Source: Bryobacteraceae bacterium
Lineage (GTDB): Bacteria > Acidobacteriota > Terriglobia > Bryobacterales > Bryobacteraceae
Length of the DNA: 6,838 nucleotides
Reading direction: 5' to 3'
Assembly: GCA_014379815.1 (NCBI GenBank)
Contig: JACMLA010000147.1
Coordinates: forward strand, 1-6,838
Shown: piece by piece, positions 1 through 6,838 of the stretch
Layout of the letters: each line of letters opens with the position of its first letter
How positions within the stretch are numbered: the first letter of the stretch is position 1
Notes under the pieces: generated by a model
Database searches by the model: none
Seen by the model: only the letters and a program-made list of their open reading frames with translations
What the model was told of the DNA's origin: nothing
Position numbers and translations under genes: made by a program

Positions 1-632
1 AAAATCAGGAAGTAGCGTTTGCCATCGTAAGCGAGCGTACCGTCAATGGCGTTGAACCCCGGGTCGAACCATAACTTCGGTTCCGAAAAGGTCTTCCAGT
101 CCCTGGTGGTCATCGCGTACAGACGGTGGTTATAGCCTGCATCCCCCGAGCCTTCGGTGTCAGGAAATCGTCCCGGAATCGTAGTCGACCAGAAGACGAT
201 CCACTGTTTCTGCCCCGCATCCCACGCAGCCTCGGGAGCCCACGCATTGCGTGCCGTGGGTTCGTTCTGAAAAACGGGGATCTCGCGCTGAGTCGTCCAT
301 TTCACCAGGTCGCGTGAGGAAGAGTATCCGATCTTCAGATCTCCGCCGGTGTCCTTGCGACTCCAGCCCCAGGTCCAGAGCAGATGCCATGTACCGTCCT
401 CGCCCCTCGTGAGGAAAGGATCGCGCATCAGCATCCCAGGCTGTTCGGGACGGATCCATGCTTGGCCAGCGTTTAGAGGCTGCCACTGCTGCCCGTTCTG
501 GCTAAGAGCGAAGTACACTCCCGTCTCGCCATTGTTCCGGAAAGAGGTGAACAGGAAGTGATCTGCCGCTGAGCAAATGTCGGACACCATGACGACCGCG
601 ATCGACAGAATGCGAAACGAGGTTCGTAGCAT
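1..632 (-). CDS. Secreted glycoside hydrolase family 43-like protein (3' end outside window)
   Basis: An open frame of 210 codons runs leftward from an ATG at 632 off the window edge, so the C-terminus is missing. The first ~23 residues look like a signal peptide (basic start MLRTSFR, hydrophobic ILSIAVVMV, likely cleavage after CSA/A), placing the protein outside the cytoplasm. The rest reads like the five-bladed propeller of GH43 and related clans. Visible pieces are MRDPFL (about 69-74), where GH43 enzymes carry the catalytic-base Asp-Pro, WAPEAAWD (131-138), like the GH43 WAPD/E motif, and IDGTLAYDGKRYF (196-208), like the pKa-modulating Asp region. GH43 enzymes mainly cleave arabinose- or xylose-containing plant polysaccharides; the substrate here cannot be told. 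The ATG overlaps the stop of the upstream ATPase gene by one base (TAATG), with a GGGAG just before it, which fixes the start. A GH32/GH43-type propeller without activity is possible. The fold call is fairly secure, the activity is not. Confidence 0.82.
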   Translation of the reverse strand, partial: MLRTSFRILSIAVVMVSDICSAADHFLFTSFRNNGETGVYFALSQNGQQWQPLNAGQAWIRPEQPGMLMRDPFLTRGEDGTWHLLWTWGWSRKDTGGDLKIGYSSSRDLVKWTTQREIPVFQNEPTARNAWAPEAAWDAGQKQWIVFWSTTIPGRFPDTEGSGDAGYNHRLYAMTTRDWKTFSEPKLWFDPGFNAIDGTLAYDGKRYFLI

Positions 633-2395
633 TAGCGCTCCCGGAAAACTTGTGGCGCTTCCGATATAGTGGCAAGGTCGAGTTCCAGCTGGGTCCGACC
701 GTCGTCAGTTACCGCTCCTACTGTAAAGGCTCCCCAGCAGTTTAGCGACAGCTTTGCCAGACCGTTCTCAGGGTGCACGGTTATTGTCGAGTCGATGAAC
801 GTGGGGTGAAGGTGGAAGGTCACAGGATCGGTTAGCGGTCTGGAGGAATCGGAGACGGCAAGATCTGTCCGGAACCACCCAGCTCCTATCTCTGAAACCC
901 GGGCGGTCAGGTTACGCCCATTGCGCGATGGCTCCATACCCCACTGACCTTTCTGAGGGTCATCCGGATCGACCTGGGGTTTAGGCGTCACGTCGATGGA
1001 CAAAGTGCGTATCAAACCTTCACGCAATCGTTTGCTGCCCGATGCGGTGGAGAAATCGATAGCCACCAGCTTGGCAATCACCGCTGGCAACTCCATTTCC
1101 CCATCGAGCACCGGAATAATGCGTTTGTTCAGCTTCAGGGCTAGCAGCTCTTCCGGATACAAGCTTCGATCCCGATCGGATGGCATGTTCACAGCTAAGA
1201 TGACTACCAGGGCATTATGAATAGCTTCGTGACACACCTGCTCCCAGTCGTCTCCGGGCAGAGGCGTGAAGACCACATCCTCACCGAACCATTCGGAAAT
1301 GCACGCAGAAATCCGGTCCACAAAGGAAGCGCTTGCCGACCGCTCCACAATGTAGACCGCGTTGCGCAGGGAAGCTTGCTGAGCCGGGACGTGTACCGGT
1401 GTCTCCAGGAATTGCTTTTTGGTCGCAAGGCGTAGTTCTTCCGGAATGCTTCCTAATTCTCTTACTGCTCCATCGGTAATCAAACTTGTAATCAAGTCGA
1501 AAGAAGTAAGTAATGAGTTGGTCTGATGTTTGCGGTCTGCGAATACCGCGAGAATCTCCTCGTAGGCGTAGTAGGGCTGATACAACAGCTCTGCCTGACC
1601 CCAGTACCGGTCCCGCGCGCTTCGTTCCAGATGCATCAGAAACGGTTGAAAGAGAGTGCGCGCCGTGGAACGGGCCGATTCCAGACGATCCTTCTCGGCC
1701 AACTCGATGCGGGTGGCTAAAGGCCAGACGCGCAGGCTTGGTTCCCCACTGGGTTTACGCCGCTGCTCAAAGGCGGACCGGGCCGCCGCTGCGGCACCCT
1801 GCATACTTTGACGGTTCAGGGTGTAGCAGACGACCAGATCGTCGGGCATATGGACTGTACACAGACCGGAAACATCGGTGATTCCTGTCCGGCTGTCAAT
1901 CAGGATGTAGTCGTAGTCTTCCCGCAACTGCCGCTTTAGTGCTTCCAGCAATACTCCGCCACCGAGCTTTGAGTAGAATTCCCTCCAGTCGAATGAACTG
2001 GCGCGAACGCTGTATGCGGGTCCCTGCTGTCCGGCCGGAACGAAGTCGATGCCGGCATCGTCTCCGAAGTCCCACTCCAGGGATTGCGAATACCCGATGA
2101 AGTCTGTATAGCGAAGATGCCAGTTCTTTTCATTGCCCGGCAGGTGCGCCTCGGTATGAAAGTCACAGAAGAAATCGATAAGTCCGGGAGATTCGCTAAG
2201 TTCTTTGTCGGCCAGAAACGGATGAAAGTACCGGTGCAATCCCGGTGCTTCCAGATCCCAGTCAATCACTAAGACCCGCAGACCATTGGTGGCGAGGATC
2301 CACGCGACGTTGGCCAGCGCCATGGAGCGTCCTGTGCCGCCTTTATAAGAATAAAAAGTGACAATTCGGCCAGACCGCGGTTTAGTTTCGGGCAT
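632..2395 (-). CDS. KGGxGR-motif MinD/ParA-like ATPase fused to a TIR-like domain and a pYEATS domain
   Basis: This 587-residue cytoplasmic protein has three parts. Residues ~10-310 are a SIMIBI/MinD-ParA-type NTPase with a variant P-loop YKGGTGRS (17-24), where the usual P-loop Lys is Arg, then VIDWDLEAPGL (43-53) and YILIDSRTGITD (163-174). This matches the KGGVGR-variant family (FYSYKGGVGRSMALAN type). Residues ~343-450 look like a degenerate TIR-like domain: AVYIVERS strand, GDDWEQ, ALVVILAV strand, then YPEELLALKLNKRIIPVL, with a Glu where TIR enzymes have their catalytic Glu. Residues ~480-575 are a prokaryotic YEATS (pYEATS) immunoglobulin-like domain: KGQWG, VTFHLHPTF, then WGAFTVGAVTDDGRTQLELDLA. 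There are no membrane segments. The ATG overlaps the stop of the upstream TIR gene as TAATG, and the stop overlaps the GH43-like gene the same way. I infer an NTP-controlled switch in a signalling or conflict system. What the pYEATS part binds is unknown. Confidence 0.9.
   Translation of the reverse strand: MPETKPRSGRIVTFYSYKGGTGRSMALANVAWILATNGLRVLVIDWDLEAPGLHRYFHPFLADKELSESPGLIDFFCDFHTEAHLPGNEKNWHLRYTDFIGYSQSLEWDFGDDAGIDFVPAGQQGPAYSVRASSFDWREFYSKLGGGVLLEALKRQLREDYDYILIDSRTGITDVSGLCTVHMPDDLVVCYTLNRQSMQGAAAAARSAFEQRRKPSGEPSLRVWPLATRIELAEKDRLESARSTARTLFQPFLMHLERSARDRYWGQAELLYQPYYAYEEILAVFADRKHQTNSLLTSFDLITSLITDGAVRELGSIPEELRLATKKQFLETPVHVPAQQASLRNAVYIVERSASASFVDRISACISEWFGEDVVFTPLPGDDWEQVCHEAIHNALVVILAVNMPSDRDRSLYPEELLALKLNKRIIPVLDGEMELPAVIAKLVAIDFSTASGSKRLREGLIRTLSIDVTPKPQVDPDDPQKGQWGMEPSRNGRNLTARVSEIGAGWFRTDLAVSDSSRPLTDPVTFHLHPTFIDSTITVHPENGLAKLSLNCWGAFTVGAVTDDGRTQLELDLATISEAPQVFRER
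638..642 (-). promoter_or_regulatory. Ribosome binding site of the GH43-like gene
   Basis: On the minus strand GGGAG lies five bases before the ATG at 632, inside the last codons of the upstream ATPase gene. Together with the TAATG overlap it supports this start and coupled reinitiation. It is the clearest Shine-Dalgarno-like site among the minus-strand genes. Confidence 0.45.
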
Positions 2396-3597
2396 TACCG
2401 CAGTTGCCCGGGGCCGGATAGCGTGGGATTAACGTCCGTATCGACGCCGAGCTCTTTTGCCGCCTGACGGGACTGATCATCTTCCAGCTTGGTGGGCGTG
2501 TCTCTTTTTAGCAGCGCCACATTGACTCTTTCCAGTGTTCGAATCAGATCCGGGAGGAAGGTCACAGTAGATCGGATAGCGAGCAGGCAGTGCGGCACTT
2601 CCGAGGTCACCATGTCGGGAAAGTCACTGGACAGTTTGGTGAACGCGTGAGTGTATGCGTCCTGAGACGACAGACTTGAGTCCGCCAGCACGACAACTGC
2701 GCAGTTCCGCATACCTTTCTTACTAATCTCGTCAAGCAGGTGCCTTTCCAGACTCCCTTCCGTGCTTATAGTCGCGAAGTCTGTAATGACGGCAACTGAT
2801 TCCCGACGATCCTCGCAGGCGAAAATCCGATCGACTAAGTCAGGTCCTGCGGGCAACTGGCGACAGACTCTGCTTGTTTGCGCCGCGACGGTGTCGCACA
2901 GTGTACTTGCGGGTATTCCAAACGGCTTCCACTGAGCCTTTTCAGGATGGAGCATCACGATGCTATATCCGTATGCGTTAGCGGTGTCATCGCCGTGAAA
3001 GATGCTCGGAATCTTTTCAAAATCGGGAAGAGGCGGCCACTCAGGCAAGTCCGATTCCTTGACGGAATCGAGGATGCGGTCTGCGAGTGCCATGACAGTT
3101 TTTACGAAGTTGTCTCGCTCGCTTTGGAGGCTTGCCAGAGCCTTCAGACCTTTGTCGACATACTTTTTGGGAAAACCTGAGTCCGCAAAGTTAAAGGCTG
3201 TCAGCTGTTGATGTAAACCGGCGCCAGGTCGTTCCCAGAGGACGGGGTAAATCAAGCTTGCCTTTCTTCCCTGATTCGGCTCAGCATTCATAAAGTGCTG
3301 TCGGCGCAACAGGAAAACCTGCACTTCTTTTCCACAATACTGGCTGGATTGGTAGCGAGGCGTGCAGAGGCAGACCAGACATTTGCTCGTCCGCAAGCTA
3401 TCGGCGAGCGCTTTGCGCCACTCGACGCCGGTTTTGATTTCCGTGGTGTCGAAGAACAGGATCTGGTCTTCTGGAACGTCGGTTTTATCGAGAATTTCTT
3501 TTCGGAGACGCTTCTGGAACTTATCCAGTTGTGGGGATTGATTTGCGCGCGCGTAACTCAGAAAGACTGTATAACCCTGTGCCATCGCAACACACAT
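2395..3597 (-). CDS. TIR-domain protein, FxsC-like
   Basis: About 400 residues, soluble, no signal peptide. The N-terminal ~140 residues are a TIR domain: YTVFLSYARA (first strand and loop), FFDTTEIKTGVEWRKAL, CLVCLCTPRYQSSQYCGKE and later SLIYPVLWE. The Glu of YCGKE (~residue 91) sits at the position of the catalytic Glu in NAD-cleaving TIR domains. The PRYxxSxxCGKE pattern resembles the TIR-like FxsC proteins of actinobacterial FxSxx-COOH clusters. The C-terminal half (about 205-365; YSIVMLHPEKAQWKPFG, SVAVITDFATIS, NCAVVVLADSS) is a second alpha/beta domain consistent with the FxsC C-terminal region, though that match is looser. The start is uncertain: GTG at 3600, ATG at 3597 and ATG at 3585 (MAQGYTVF) are in frame and none has a good Shine-Dalgarno; 3585 gives the most TIR-like N-terminus. 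The stop forms TAATG with the ATPase start, so the two are probably made together. Enzyme activity is unproven. Confidence 0.87.
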   Translation of the reverse strand: MCVAMAQGYTVFLSYARANQSPQLDKFQKRLRKEILDKTDVPEDQILFFDTTEIKTGVEWRKALADSLRTSKCLVCLCTPRYQSSQYCGKEVQVFLLRRQHFMNAEPNQGRKASLIYPVLWERPGAGLHQQLTAFNFADSGFPKKYVDKGLKALASLQSERDNFVKTVMALADRILDSVKESDLPEWPPLPDFEKIPSIFHGDDTANAYGYSIVMLHPEKAQWKPFGIPASTLCDTVAAQTSRVCRQLPAGPDLVDRIFACEDRRESVAVITDFATISTEGSLERHLLDEISKKGMRNCAVVVLADSSLSSQDAYTHAFTKLSSDFPDMVTSEVPHCLLAIRSTVTFLPDLIRTLERVNVALLKRDTPTKLEDDQSRQAAKELGVDTDVNPTLSGPGQLR

Positions 3598-3600
3598 CAC

Positions 3601-4873: not shown

Positions 4874-5650
4874 TTGACCACTGAACGACCGGTCGCTATT
4901 CGGACTTCTGAGCTGGGCAAGCGCTACCAATCTGGCCAAAATACGGTAACTGTATTCGAAGGCCTGAACCTAAGCGTTACCGTGGGAGAGCGCCTGGCTT
5001 TAATTGGAGACTCCGGGGCTGGCAAAAGCACTTTGCTGCACCTGCTTGGCGGTTTAGACCGTCCCACAGAAGGGACTATCTGTTTTGGAGATCTGGAGAT
5101 CACCAGCTTGAATGAAGCCGGACTGGCCGATTTCCGCAACCGGCAGATTGGGTTTGTCTGGCAGACTCACTATCTGCTACCCGAGTTTACGGCTCTGGAA
5201 AATGTCATGATGCCGTTGCTGATTCGCGCCGTTCCACGGGAAGCTGCATCAAAAGACGCAATGGCACGCCTTGCCGATGTTGGTCTGACACAAAGAGCCA
5301 GTCACAGGGCAGGTGAACTCTCCGGGGGAGAACAGCAGAGGGTTGTGATCGCACGCGCGCTTGTTGGCAGGCCGAAGGTGTTGCTGGCGGATGAGCCGAC
5401 CGGCAACCTCGATTCAGGTACTGGAGAGCGGATTACCGGTGTGTTTGAGGAGTTGCACCGGCAACATCAGCTGACATCGGTTTTTGTCACTCACAATCTG
5501 GGATTCGCGCGCCGGTGCGACCGCATCTTACATTTAGTTAACGGATCGTTGCGAGTTTTCGACGAAGAGGCTTCTGCTTCCCCTGTGGTCTTGCAGCCCG
5601 GGGGTGGCCGAGAAGATTCTGCAAGGAAAGACGGGGCGGAATATGTTTGA
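4874..5650 (+). CDS. lolD: LolD-type ABC transporter ATP-binding protein
   Basis: This 258-residue ABC ATPase has all core motifs: Walker A GDSGAGKS (45-52), Q-loop Gln97 in [13 protein letters not shown], signature LSGGEQQR (149-156), Walker B VLLADE (169-174), D-loop GNLD (177-180) and H-loop His207 in FVTHN. The stretch [16 protein letters not shown] is characteristic of the LolD/MacB/FtsE subfamily and closest to LolD, the ATPase that with LolC/LolE membrane subunits extracts lipoproteins from the inner membrane for delivery to the outer membrane. Family length is about 230; the last ~25 residues (Gly, Glu, Asp-rich) are an extra tail. The start is a TTG at 4874; no ATG or GTG lies between the in-frame stop at 4832 and the conserved core, and no clear ribosome binding site precedes it. 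The 3' end overlaps clpC by 8 bases. No membrane subunit gene adjoins it here. A MacB-like exporter role is the main alternative. Confidence 0.9.
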
Positions 5651-6838
5651 ACGTTATACCGAAAAGGCCCGGCGTGTGATCTTTTTTGCGCGGTACGAGG
5701 CGAGCCAGTTCGGCAGTCCTTATATTGAAACTGAGCACCTGCTCTTAGGATTGCTAAGGGAAGATAAAGCCCTTGCGAACCGGTTTCTGCGCTCGCATGC
5801 TGCTATCGAGTCGATCCGAAAGCAGATTGAGTCGCACACCACAATCCGCGAAAAGGTTTCCACCTCGGTAGATCTTCCTTTGAGCCATGAGTGCAAACGA
5901 GTTCTGGCTTACGGTGCGGAAGAAGCTGAGCGGCTAAACCATAAGCACATCGGCACGGAGCACTTGCTGCTTGGTCTGCTGCGCGAAGACAAAAGTTTCG
6001 CCGCGGAGATTCTGCATGAGCGAGGCCTGAGACTGTCTCAGGTGCGCGAGGAGATTGCGCGCTCTTCATCGGAGAAGATGGCATCCAACCGACCGAAAGA
6101 GAGCTCCCTGCTGGCAGAGTTCAGCCGGGATCTGACGCAGTCTGCGGTGGATGGGTCACTGGACCCGTTGATTGGGCGGGACTTTGAACTGGATCGCGTG
6201 ATCCAGATTTTGTGCCGCCGTACAAAGAACAATCCGGTGCTGATCGGTGAGCCTGGGGTGGGTAAGACGGCGATTGTGGAAGGCCTGGCACAGCGCATTG
6301 CCGACGGCGATGTTCCGTCATTCTTGGCCGATAAACGCATCCTCGCTCTGGATCTCTCGCTGATCGTCGCGGGCACCAAGTACCGCGGCCAGTTTGAAGA
6401 GCGGCTGAAGACGATCATGAAAGAGCTGATGGAGAACCAGAACGCCATCATTTTCATTGACGAGCTGCATACTCTGGTAGGTGCGGGCTCGGCAGAAGGT
6501 TCACTGGATGCTGCGAACATCTTAAAGCCGGCACTCTCGCGAGGGGAGATTCAGTGTATCGGTGCGACCACGCCCGGCGAGTATCGCAAGTCAATTGAAA
6601 AAGACCGGTCTCTGGAGCGGAGATTTCAGGCGGTCAAGGTTCCGCCACCGAACGAGCTGGATGCCATCAGGATTCTGTTTGGTGTCAAAGAACGTTACGA
6701 GAAGTTCCACGCTGTGGCGTATACCGACGATGCCATTGAATCGGCCGTGTACACGTCCAGTCGCTTCATTCCGGATCGCTTTCTGCCAGACAAAGCAATT
6801 GATTTGATCGATGAGGCGGGAGCCCGGGTCAAACTACG
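5643..6838 (+). CDS. clpC: ClpC-type AAA+ unfoldase, ATP-binding subunit of Clp protease (3' end outside window)
   Basis: The first 398 codons of an expected ~800-residue protein are present and the frame is intact to the edge. Residues 1-145 carry two Clp N-terminal repeats, each with the same core [11 protein letters not shown] (31-41 and 106-116), used in ClpC for adaptor and substrate binding. The first AAA+ domain follows: [13 protein letters not shown], Walker A GEPGVGKT (202-209), pore loop [11 protein letters not shown] with Tyr247, Walker B IIFIDE (269-274), sensor region IGATT (306-310), Arg finger in LERRF (324-328), and a lid ending in [10 protein letters not shown]. The middle domain and second AAA+ ring are beyond the window. 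ClpC hexamers unfold proteins and feed them to ClpP in the cytoplasm. The ATG overlaps the ABC gene by 8 bases, implying a shared transcript and coupled translation; the only Shine-Dalgarno-like bases, AAGGAAAG at 5623-5630, are rather far off. The [11 protein letters not shown] start is typical of ClpC, and ClpB is excluded by the paired repeat type. Confidence 0.95.

Follow-up and report, generated by a model that had tools for sequence, protein, structure and literature searches.

The closest described counterparts of the locus analysed here are the FxSxx-COOH systems of actinobacteria, which include the proteins FxsC (NF040588/TIGR04276) and FxsT (NF040586). MinD/ParA ATPases, to which the opening domain of FxsT is related, use a deviant Walker A motif, KGGxGK[ST], with a P-loop lysine. 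TIR signalling is known from Thoeris, and a further domain that concerns us, pYEATS, is reportedly described by Burroughs and Aravind (J Bacteriol, 2020).

The window, by which we mean the whole stretch of DNA analysed, comprises 6,838 nucleotides from a Bryobacteraceae bacterium (contig JACMLA010000147.1). A first-pass annotation had claimed that it encodes a TIR protein and an NTPase/TIR-like/pYEATS protein, joined by a TAATG overlap. We confirm that this two-gene pair is real, in its gene pairing as in its domain architecture: the domain assignments of both proteins are backed by Pfam/NCBIfam profiles and predicted structures (AF2 mean pLDDT 86.8 for the FxsC-like TIR protein and 90.6 for its partner), and the overlap is present. 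The features are as follows.

2395..3585, minus strand: FxsC-like TIR protein, 396 aa, open reading frame from ATG 3585
3058..3576, minus strand: TIR domain of the FxsC-like protein, residues 4-176
3325-3327, minus strand: codon of putative catalytic Glu87 in this TIR domain
2497..2973, minus strand: C-terminal Rossmann/receiver-like domain of the FxsC-like protein, residues 205-363
2393..2397, minus strand: TAATG stop/start overlap between both genes, read directly from the sequence
632..2395, minus strand: NTPase-TIR-pYEATS protein, 587 aa, from open reading frame, domain profiles and predicted structure
1460..2371, minus strand: KGGVGR-type MinD/ParA-like domain, residues 9-312
2324..2344, minus strand: P-loop KGGTGRS, residues 18-24, with Arg in place of the MinD/ParA Lys
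998..1363, minus strand: embedded TIR domain, residues 345-466 (TIR_2, 29.0 bits)
1151-1153, minus strand: codon of putative catalytic Glu415 in the embedded TIR; Glu416 adjoins
635..961, minus strand: extended pYEATS module, residues 479-587 (Pfam core 514-574)

The open frame of the FxsC-like gene reaches back beyond its ATG to a GTG at 3600.

Domains of the two proteins

The FxsC-like protein exceeds the cut-off of Pfam TIR_2 (49.4 bits against 28) and matches FxsC_Nterm (NF040588) at 96.9 bits and E 1.3e-27, under the cut-off of 130. FxsC_Cterm (TIGR04276, cut-off 55) has no match in it at E <= 1; the same profile exceeds its cut-off in the relatives L005, L008, L009, L011 and L042. By these profiles, the protein is a divergent relative of FxsC. 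In a fold search, its TIR domain was nearest to SPARTA and AbTir, and its C-terminal domain was receiver/Rossmann-like. The putative catalytic Glu is retained in all 51 aligned FxsC-like TIRs, and this TIR is probably an NAD-cleaving enzyme. Protein searches with this gene returned five and then seven homologues, including the window's own, in a search whose reach is limited by its word filter.

The first domain of the partner scores 149.5 bits against AAA_KGGVGR (NF047398, cut-off 90) and has the MinD/ParA ATPase fold; it is the KGGVGR MinD/ParA-like domain with which FxsT begins in actinobacterial FxSxx-COOH systems. The lysine of the deviant Walker A motif is absent: where the aligned MinD (1g3q) has KGGTGKT, the P-loop has Arg23. 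Of 119 aligned rows, 113 have this Arg and six have a gap. Because of this replacement, NTPase activity is not assured.

The middle domain, annotated at first as TIR-like, is a TIR domain, and a fast-evolving one that mostly keeps its putative catalytic Glu. Its score against TIR_2 lies just above the cut-off of 28, and its family profile matches tir-1, AbTIR and Cat1. We placed the putative catalytic position by alignment to the NADase tir-1, whose Glu in WVHKEL we take to be the catalytic residue. This Glu is kept in 96 of 119 aligned embedded TIRs; the other 23 lack it in the alignment column, among them L001 (Gln) and L003 (Lys), and a few of these have another Glu close by. In L002, TIR_2 finds nothing in the embedded TIR at E <= 0.001; in L003 it matches this domain with a score under the cut-off. 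Mean identity across relatives is 24% for the embedded TIR, as against 60% for the NTPase domain and 52% for the pYEATS region. Module swapping as the cause of this variability is mostly rejected, because NTPase identity reaches at least 0.9 in 14 pairs and the TIR identity of these pairs still averages 0.71 (range 0.41-0.87), a pattern that looks like fast gradual change. One pair, P0033/P0050 (NTPase 0.95, TIR 0.41), is a possible exception to gradual change. The FxsC-like protein also diverges quickly, with 17-25% identity to most relatives, so rapid change is not peculiar to the embedded TIR.

The tail scores 47 bits against pYEATS (PF20305), exceeding the cut-off of 26.9. The module has a conserved leader of the DPxxxxKGxWGG type; a SIR2-pYEATS protein and further short proteins also hit the profile, over positions from about 480 to 601. 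Among the matches listed, pYEATS was assigned to 117 of 120 homologues. The pYEATS part of the first-pass annotation is present here, as one of several exchangeable tails: the proteins with this NTPase end in pYEATS, FGE-sulfatase, pentapeptide, NACHT/STAND or NB-ARC-TPR regions. Elsewhere, pYEATS occurs in the SIR2 fusion and in a protein annotated as FRG-domain; it adjoins a patatin gene at L103 and lies a few genes from one at L109. Its occurrence is patchy: in three phyla it was found in 4 of 396, 6 of 337 and 2 of 398 genomes, with the seed genome counted in each. The TIR and pYEATS regions are thus backed by profiles, including the match of the embedded-TIR profile. A fold search with the whole AF2 model of the NTPase-TIR-pYEATS protein found the NTPase region only, among the matches listed, so this search does not confirm the embedded-TIR and pYEATS folds.

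Pairing and genomic setting among relatives

In a genome scan, an FxsC-like gene lies directly upstream in 77 of the best 80 NTPase loci, with 32-143 nt between the end of its open frame and the KGG codon at paired loci. These 80 loci fall into five named phyla, and mostly into Actinomycetota (Streptomyces, Frankia, Micromonosporaceae). The pairing is also found in 13 of the 14 loci without an FxsT tail. In the class of G001, a TIR gene is directly upstream in all nine close relatives examined. Neither outcome that the first-pass annotation had named as refuting it has occurred: close relatives usually have the pair together, and the regions assigned to TIR and pYEATS are supported. At more distant NTPase places in this class (L154-L160 and L163; E 2.7e-49 to 2.2e-26), an FxsC match was found in none of eight, a count that leaves out three further NTPase places, in G1395, G1293 and G1446 contig 180. 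Upstream of the distant KGGTGR NTPases L155-L158 and L163 we read HTH-type genes from the sequences instead, and an annotated HTH gene takes the place of the TIR gene at L098, another more distant KGGTGR NTPase. Partners at L149-L153 are short and have no C-terminal domain. Four verrucomicrobial NTPase loci besides L003 were examined; a short TIR is upstream at L117, and L118-L120 have no FxsC match. Two relatives are on plasmids: H2 (41.8% identity) has an annotated HTH gene upstream, and H3 (36.1%) has there a TIR-type open frame of 208 aa, which hits the FxsC profile at 2.3e-20 and for which the annotation gives a hypothetical protein of lesser length.

As to proximity to defence islands, some relatives have defence-type genes nearby, but the window does not; its pair neighbours lolD/clpC-type genes, and by eye the neighbours at L146, L149 and L151 look ordinary too. 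A predicted conjugative plasmid carries a sister architecture amid TIR, SLOG and patatin genes. In the NTPase tree, the window groups with L001 of the Methylococcaceae, apart from the acidobacterial L002 and L146, which points to horizontal spread. In four of four related genomes, lolD and clpC are neighbours with no pair nearby. This does not amount to an empty site at exactly the position of the pair in the window: in G001 the nearest cupin-like gene shares a contig with clpC but is about 35 kb away, in the remaining genomes it is on other contigs, and the GH43-like gene had no match in six genomes, in a search that had no positive control. None of 50,697 phage records matched the NTPase protein at E <= 1e-5. 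Viral contigs gave no FxsC-like match with the five-sequence alignment A2; they contain four distant NTPase loci, whose identity is 39-40% over part of the protein and which have no FxsC match.

Possible roles of the pair

We put at about even the chance that the pair is a TIR/NADase conflict module, of anti-phage or programmed-death type, with a MinD/ParA-like switch and a swappable sensor tail. The tail would sense a trigger or bind an adaptor, and the MinD/ParA-like domain, with nucleotide bound, would dimerise or oligomerise; the Arg in its P-loop suggests that such a switch is slow or works just once. This step would join the embedded and FxsC-like TIRs into a TIR-TIR assembly, in which the FxsC-like TIR would cleave NAD+, causing depletion or giving an ADP-ribose signal. 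The fast-changing embedded TIR could be a contact surface under phage pressure, or a surface for assembly specificity. NAD cleavage, switching and phage defence by the pair are what we infer. The pairing, the retained Glu, the TIR matches and the swappable STAND/NACHT-type tails count for a conflict module, as do pYEATS alongside SIR2, FRG and patatin, the patchiness, the horizontal spread and the sister architecture on a plasmid. Against it count the ordinary neighbours, the lack of a good named PADLOC match, the Glu-less and weak embedded TIRs, the quick divergence of the FxsC-like protein as well, and the predominance among the 80 loci of Actinomycetota, a phylum whose FxSxx systems may have no antiviral role. 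The interpretation in the first-pass annotation is thus partly supported, with a TIR gated by the NTPase and pYEATS acting as sensor as its conjectural part.

The overlapping genes would also suit restraint rather than activation: the NTPase-TIR-pYEATS protein may mainly hold an FxsC-like TIR toxin in check by TIR-TIR capping, as in a toxin-antitoxin pair, so that lost or modified restraint frees the NADase. The 23 embedded TIRs without Glu resemble what a capping pseudo-enzyme might be, and several more distant KGGTGR NTPases have HTH-type genes upstream in place of a TIR gene; however, most embedded TIRs retain the Glu, and large STAND/NACHT/NB-ARC tails suit activation more than plain inhibition, which makes this reading unlikely. 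It is quite improbable that the FxsC-like TIR makes an ADP-ribose-type second messenger, read by its own Rossmann-like C-terminal domain or by its partner. That domain and the Thoeris precedent speak for such wiring, but the short partners lack the domain, and none of the seven window proteins scanned is a known receptor, whether SLOG, Macro or another. Developmental or housekeeping signalling, which may be the role of actinobacterial FxSxx-COOH systems, would accord with the predominance of Streptomyces, Frankia and Micromonosporaceae and with the ordinary genes that surround the pair here and at several relatives; we consider it very unlikely here, given the patchiness in other phyla, the absence of the pair beside lolD-clpC in four related genomes, the plasmid copy amid TIR/SLOG/patatin genes and the varying tails.

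Starting again from the conflict module, a wider proposal can be made, which we hold to be less likely than not: the loci may belong to a widespread immune architecture so far unrecognised as one system, with a constant FxsC-like TIR NADase, a MinD/ParA-like scaffold with P-loop Arg for Lys, a fast-diversifying second TIR and interchangeable sensor tails. Heterotypic TIR-TIR assembly would set specificity, and the actinobacterial FxSxx-COOH systems would be one peptide-coupled branch. If active, the pair would be a test case for a MinD/ParA-type switch controlling TIR NADases and a route towards the function of pYEATS, a family (PF20305) whose name carries no tested function.

Comparison with known systems

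PADLOC gives no good match to a named system: the N-terminus of the NTPase protein matches the unnamed candidate PDC-M28B (84.5 bits, NTPase region only), and the TIR matches are weak. Like Thoeris, the pair is TIR-centred, and the window TIR has weak similarity to ThsB and ThcB4 (12.8 and 21.4 bits), but these scores are far under the cut-offs (21.2 for PF08937 and 220, respectively) and none of the seven window proteins scanned is ThsA-like. From the MinD/ParA-AP-ATPase and peptide-processing systems, as presented in Kaur et al. 2020 (PMC7159879), the locus differs in that the MoxR-vWA pair, peptidase and radical-SAM protein are absent from these seven proteins; in that paper, YEATS appears solely as an author name.

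Among the papers listed in the literature searches, none has a characterised system that pairs an FxsC-like TIR with an NTPase-TIR-pYEATS protein; the pairing is in part known from the FxsC-like and FxsT-type proteins of actinobacterial FxSxx-COOH systems. The window's FxsC-like protein differs from FxsC in its FxsC_Nterm score, which is under the cut-off, and in lacking an FxsC_Cterm match. The FxsT tail is NB-ARC/TPR, whereas the window tail is pYEATS; the window NTPase protein has no NB-ARC, TPR or FxSxx_TPR match, and the FxsT-tail comparison was negative for L001-L003 as well. No FxsB radical-SAM gene is among the seven window proteins scanned. FxsB exceeds its cut-off in nine of nine actinobacterial genomes tried, and in one of eight others (seven named non-actinobacterial and one unclassified, several of them MAGs), on another contig. 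FxsT-type proteins may carry a TIR after the NTPase as the window protein does; that of L005 (FxSxx_TPR, 1014 bits) has TIR_2 at 335-452. In both settings the gene directly downstream of an FxsC-like TIR gene encodes a MinD/ParA-like protein of the KGGTGR type. The little-studied actinobacterial FxsC/FxsT pair is thereby tied to a broader two-gene TIR module in five named phyla.

The gene pair and its surroundings

The pair under study occupies the minus strand of the window, among the following features:

632-2395, minus strand: NTPase-TIR-pYEATS gene (587 aa), second gene of the pair
2395-3585, minus strand: FxsC-like TIR gene (ATG start; the open frame reaches a GTG at 3600)
4874-6836, plus strand: ABC ATPase, LolD-type by reading, and Clp ATPase (ClpC by reading)
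window edge: truncated GH43-like gene (20.1 bits, under the cut-off)
window flank: small secreted-looking protein without a Pfam match
window flank: cupin-like protein, under the cut-off

The first-pass annotation had described a TIR gene and an NTPase-TIR-pYEATS gene joined by a TAATG overlap, and both domain models and the sequence itself confirm this description. In the FxsC-like protein, TIR_2 scores 49.4 bits, and the FxsC_Nterm model 96.9 bits, under its cut-off of 130. The 587-aa protein opens with a KGGVGR-type MinD/ParA-like domain (NF047398, 149.5 bits against a cut-off of 90), followed by an embedded TIR_2 domain barely above its cut-off (29.0 versus 28 bits) and a C-terminal pYEATS domain (47 bits, cut-off 26.9).

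For the window's Clp protein, the best match reaches 91% identity in G1345, 89% in G001 (the uncultured Acidobacteriia genome that contains L002), 87% in G1446 and 86% in G004 (Edaphobacter, the genome of L004); G1345 and G1446 belong to the same class as G001. In seven other genomes tried, identity is at most 65%, which makes an acidobacterial origin of the window probable. A lolD-type ABC ATPase gene beside clpC is common to all four related genomes fetched, and in none of the four was the pair found beside lolD-clpC.

Pairing of the NTPase with an upstream TIR gene

A two-gene module implies homologues that are not rarely paired, and this is what we found among the close relatives. Using the NTPase alignment, we scanned a single genome for each GTDB species; of 589 confirmed stretches, the best 80 were analysed. 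Five named phyla are represented: Actinomycetota in great majority, with heavy Streptomyces redundancy, and also Acidobacteriota, Verrucomicrobiota, Nitrospirota and Pseudomonadota. In 77 of these 80, the NTPase is immediately preceded, on its own strand, by an FxsC-like ORF that ends 32-143 nt before the KGG codon. Seven of the nine seeds of the FxsC-like profile were taken from these loci, so 70 of the 77 upstream matches are independent of the profile. The exceptions are L049 (opposite-strand FxsC-like ORF, shorter NTPase frame), L050 (no FxsC-like ORF found upstream) and L053 (contig edge). The FxsT tail is matched by 66 of the 80 NTPases, and 13 of the 14 loci without this match also have the FxsC-like gene.

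In the class of G001, 19 of 399 genomes have NTPase matches at E <= 1e-20 (25 rows). Ten places reach E <= 1e-59, one of which starts at the contig start; the nine examined all have a TIR gene directly upstream, either of the two-domain FxsC type (four, among them L147, where the gene is split) or a short TIR-only form (five), the latter including L149, with a weak profile match (9.3e-6). At weaker E-values, none of the eight places examined has an FxsC match. Pairing is thus a mark of the close relatives, not of all KGGTGR NTPases. Among four further NTPase loci in Verrucomicrobiota, one has a short TIR gene upstream. All five pYEATS-type loci examined (the window, L002, L003, L146 and, partially, L001, where the contig end truncates the frame) have the FxsC-like gene. 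The split FxsC-like gene of L147, in the genome of L002, is spread over two frames (L147:4486-5909, plus strand), from a frameshift or sequencing error. Upstream of the distant KGGTGR NTPases L155-L158, an HTH-looking gene with Cys pairs takes the place of the TIR gene, an arrangement suggestive of a separate module.

A conserved NTPase with an exchangeable tail

The NTPase protein has 4882 homologues at E <= 0.001. Among the 120 listed, the Pfam column gives pYEATS in 117 and NTPase, TIR and pYEATS together in 102; this architecture is not due to chance. We aligned 119 sequences: the window, 115 listed homologues and three loci, leaving out P0001 (the window's own), P0003, P0025, P0041 and P0112 as duplicates or different architectures. 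Over the same 7021 pairs, identity averages 0.60 in the NTPase (residues 9-325) and 0.52 in residues 479-587, and falls to 0.24 in the embedded TIR (345-470). The KGG signature Lys and downstream Asp residues are conserved, and the final P-loop position, where Lys is usual, holds Arg in 113 of the 119 rows and a gap in the other six. A Glu in the embedded TIR aligns with the Glu in the WVHKEL stretch of the NADase tir-1, which we take to be its catalytic residue. Of the 119 rows, 96 carry this Glu, 12 have Gln instead and 11 a gap or another letter; the count depends on the alignment because a Glu lies close by in a few of the rows without it. The family profile has further matches in AbTIR and Cat1.

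The tail of the NTPase protein is exchangeable. It is pYEATS in L001, L002, L003 and, by full-length profile match, L146; FGE-sulfatase in L004 and L097; pentapeptide in L008; nSTAND5 in L009; nSTAND1 plus TPR in L042; NB-ARC/TPR in L005; NACHT in L012 and L020, and under the cut-off in L017; and DUF4231, under the cut-off, in L022. No further tail domain was found in L011 or L043, and L049 is short. In a tree of 42 NTPase domains, the FGE pair (Edaphobacter and a Rhizobium plasmid) is united (100/96). The window groups with the homologue P0005, and falls with Methylococcaceae L001 in a seven-row clade (99/96), away from acidobacterial L002 and L146, as horizontal transfer would lead one to expect. 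Pentapeptide-tailed L008 sits beside L003, L002 and L146 (92/89), so the rows with pYEATS do not form a strictly single clade.

Occurrence is patchy and accessory in character: within three phyla, pYEATS matches turned up in 4 of 396, 6 of 337 and 2 of 398 genomes, counts that include the seed genomes, and 14 control genomes gave none. The pair has TIR or NACHT-type genes nearby in L002, L004 and L022, and TIR, WD40, SLOG cluster 2 and patatin genes surround the FxsC-like and NTPase-FGE pair of L097 (753-12868), on a Rhizobium beringeri plasmid typed as conjugative by prediction; other relatives have ordinary neighbours.

The window's pYEATS unit (635-961, minus strand) appears longer than the Pfam model, extending about 35 residues N-terminal of its core (profile positions ~480 to 601). 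This stretch also matches a SIR2 fusion (L102), the proteins L107 and L108, whose hydrophobic stretches suggest an N-terminus of membrane type, and further short proteins (L101, L161, L162), and its DPxxxxKGx[WF]GG-type leader is seen with several different fusion partners. The SIR2-like fusion (L102:6008-7345, plus strand), from the phylum of G001, is another NAD-linked effector type bearing a pYEATS tail. Short pYEATS ORFs adjoin a patatin phospholipase gene (L103:3455-5006, minus strand) or lie a few genes from one (L109:7637-11203, minus strand, with weak matches to the embedded-TIR part of the profile). A Rhizobium leguminosarum plasmid encodes a protein annotated with an FRG domain whose C-terminus is of the pYEATS type (L100:4224-5324, plus strand).

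Proposed function and relation to FxSxx-COOH systems

The earlier two-gene reading is partly supported, standing in its domains and pairing, and is refined in that the plan is FxsC/FxsT-like, pYEATS is exchangeable and the embedded TIR is fast-evolving. The data demonstrate the pairing, the domains and the conservation of key residues. Regarding enzymatic activity, switching, sensing and a role in defence, we infer that the FxsC-like TIR would be the conserved NADase of the pair, controlled via a MinD/ParA-like scaffold that bears a second, fast-evolving TIR, and that the exchangeable tail on this scaffold may act as a sensor or adaptor.

FxsB was above the cut-off in all nine actinobacterial genomes tried, and in one of eight others (seven named non-actinobacterial, one unclassified), several of which are MAGs and may be incomplete. 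The one is G001, with FxsB on contig 12 and NTPases on contigs 42, 97 and 171. Thus, the pair resembles FxSxx-COOH systems in its FxsC/FxsT-like plan, but beyond the actinobacterial genomes tried it mostly lacks their peptide-processing partner.
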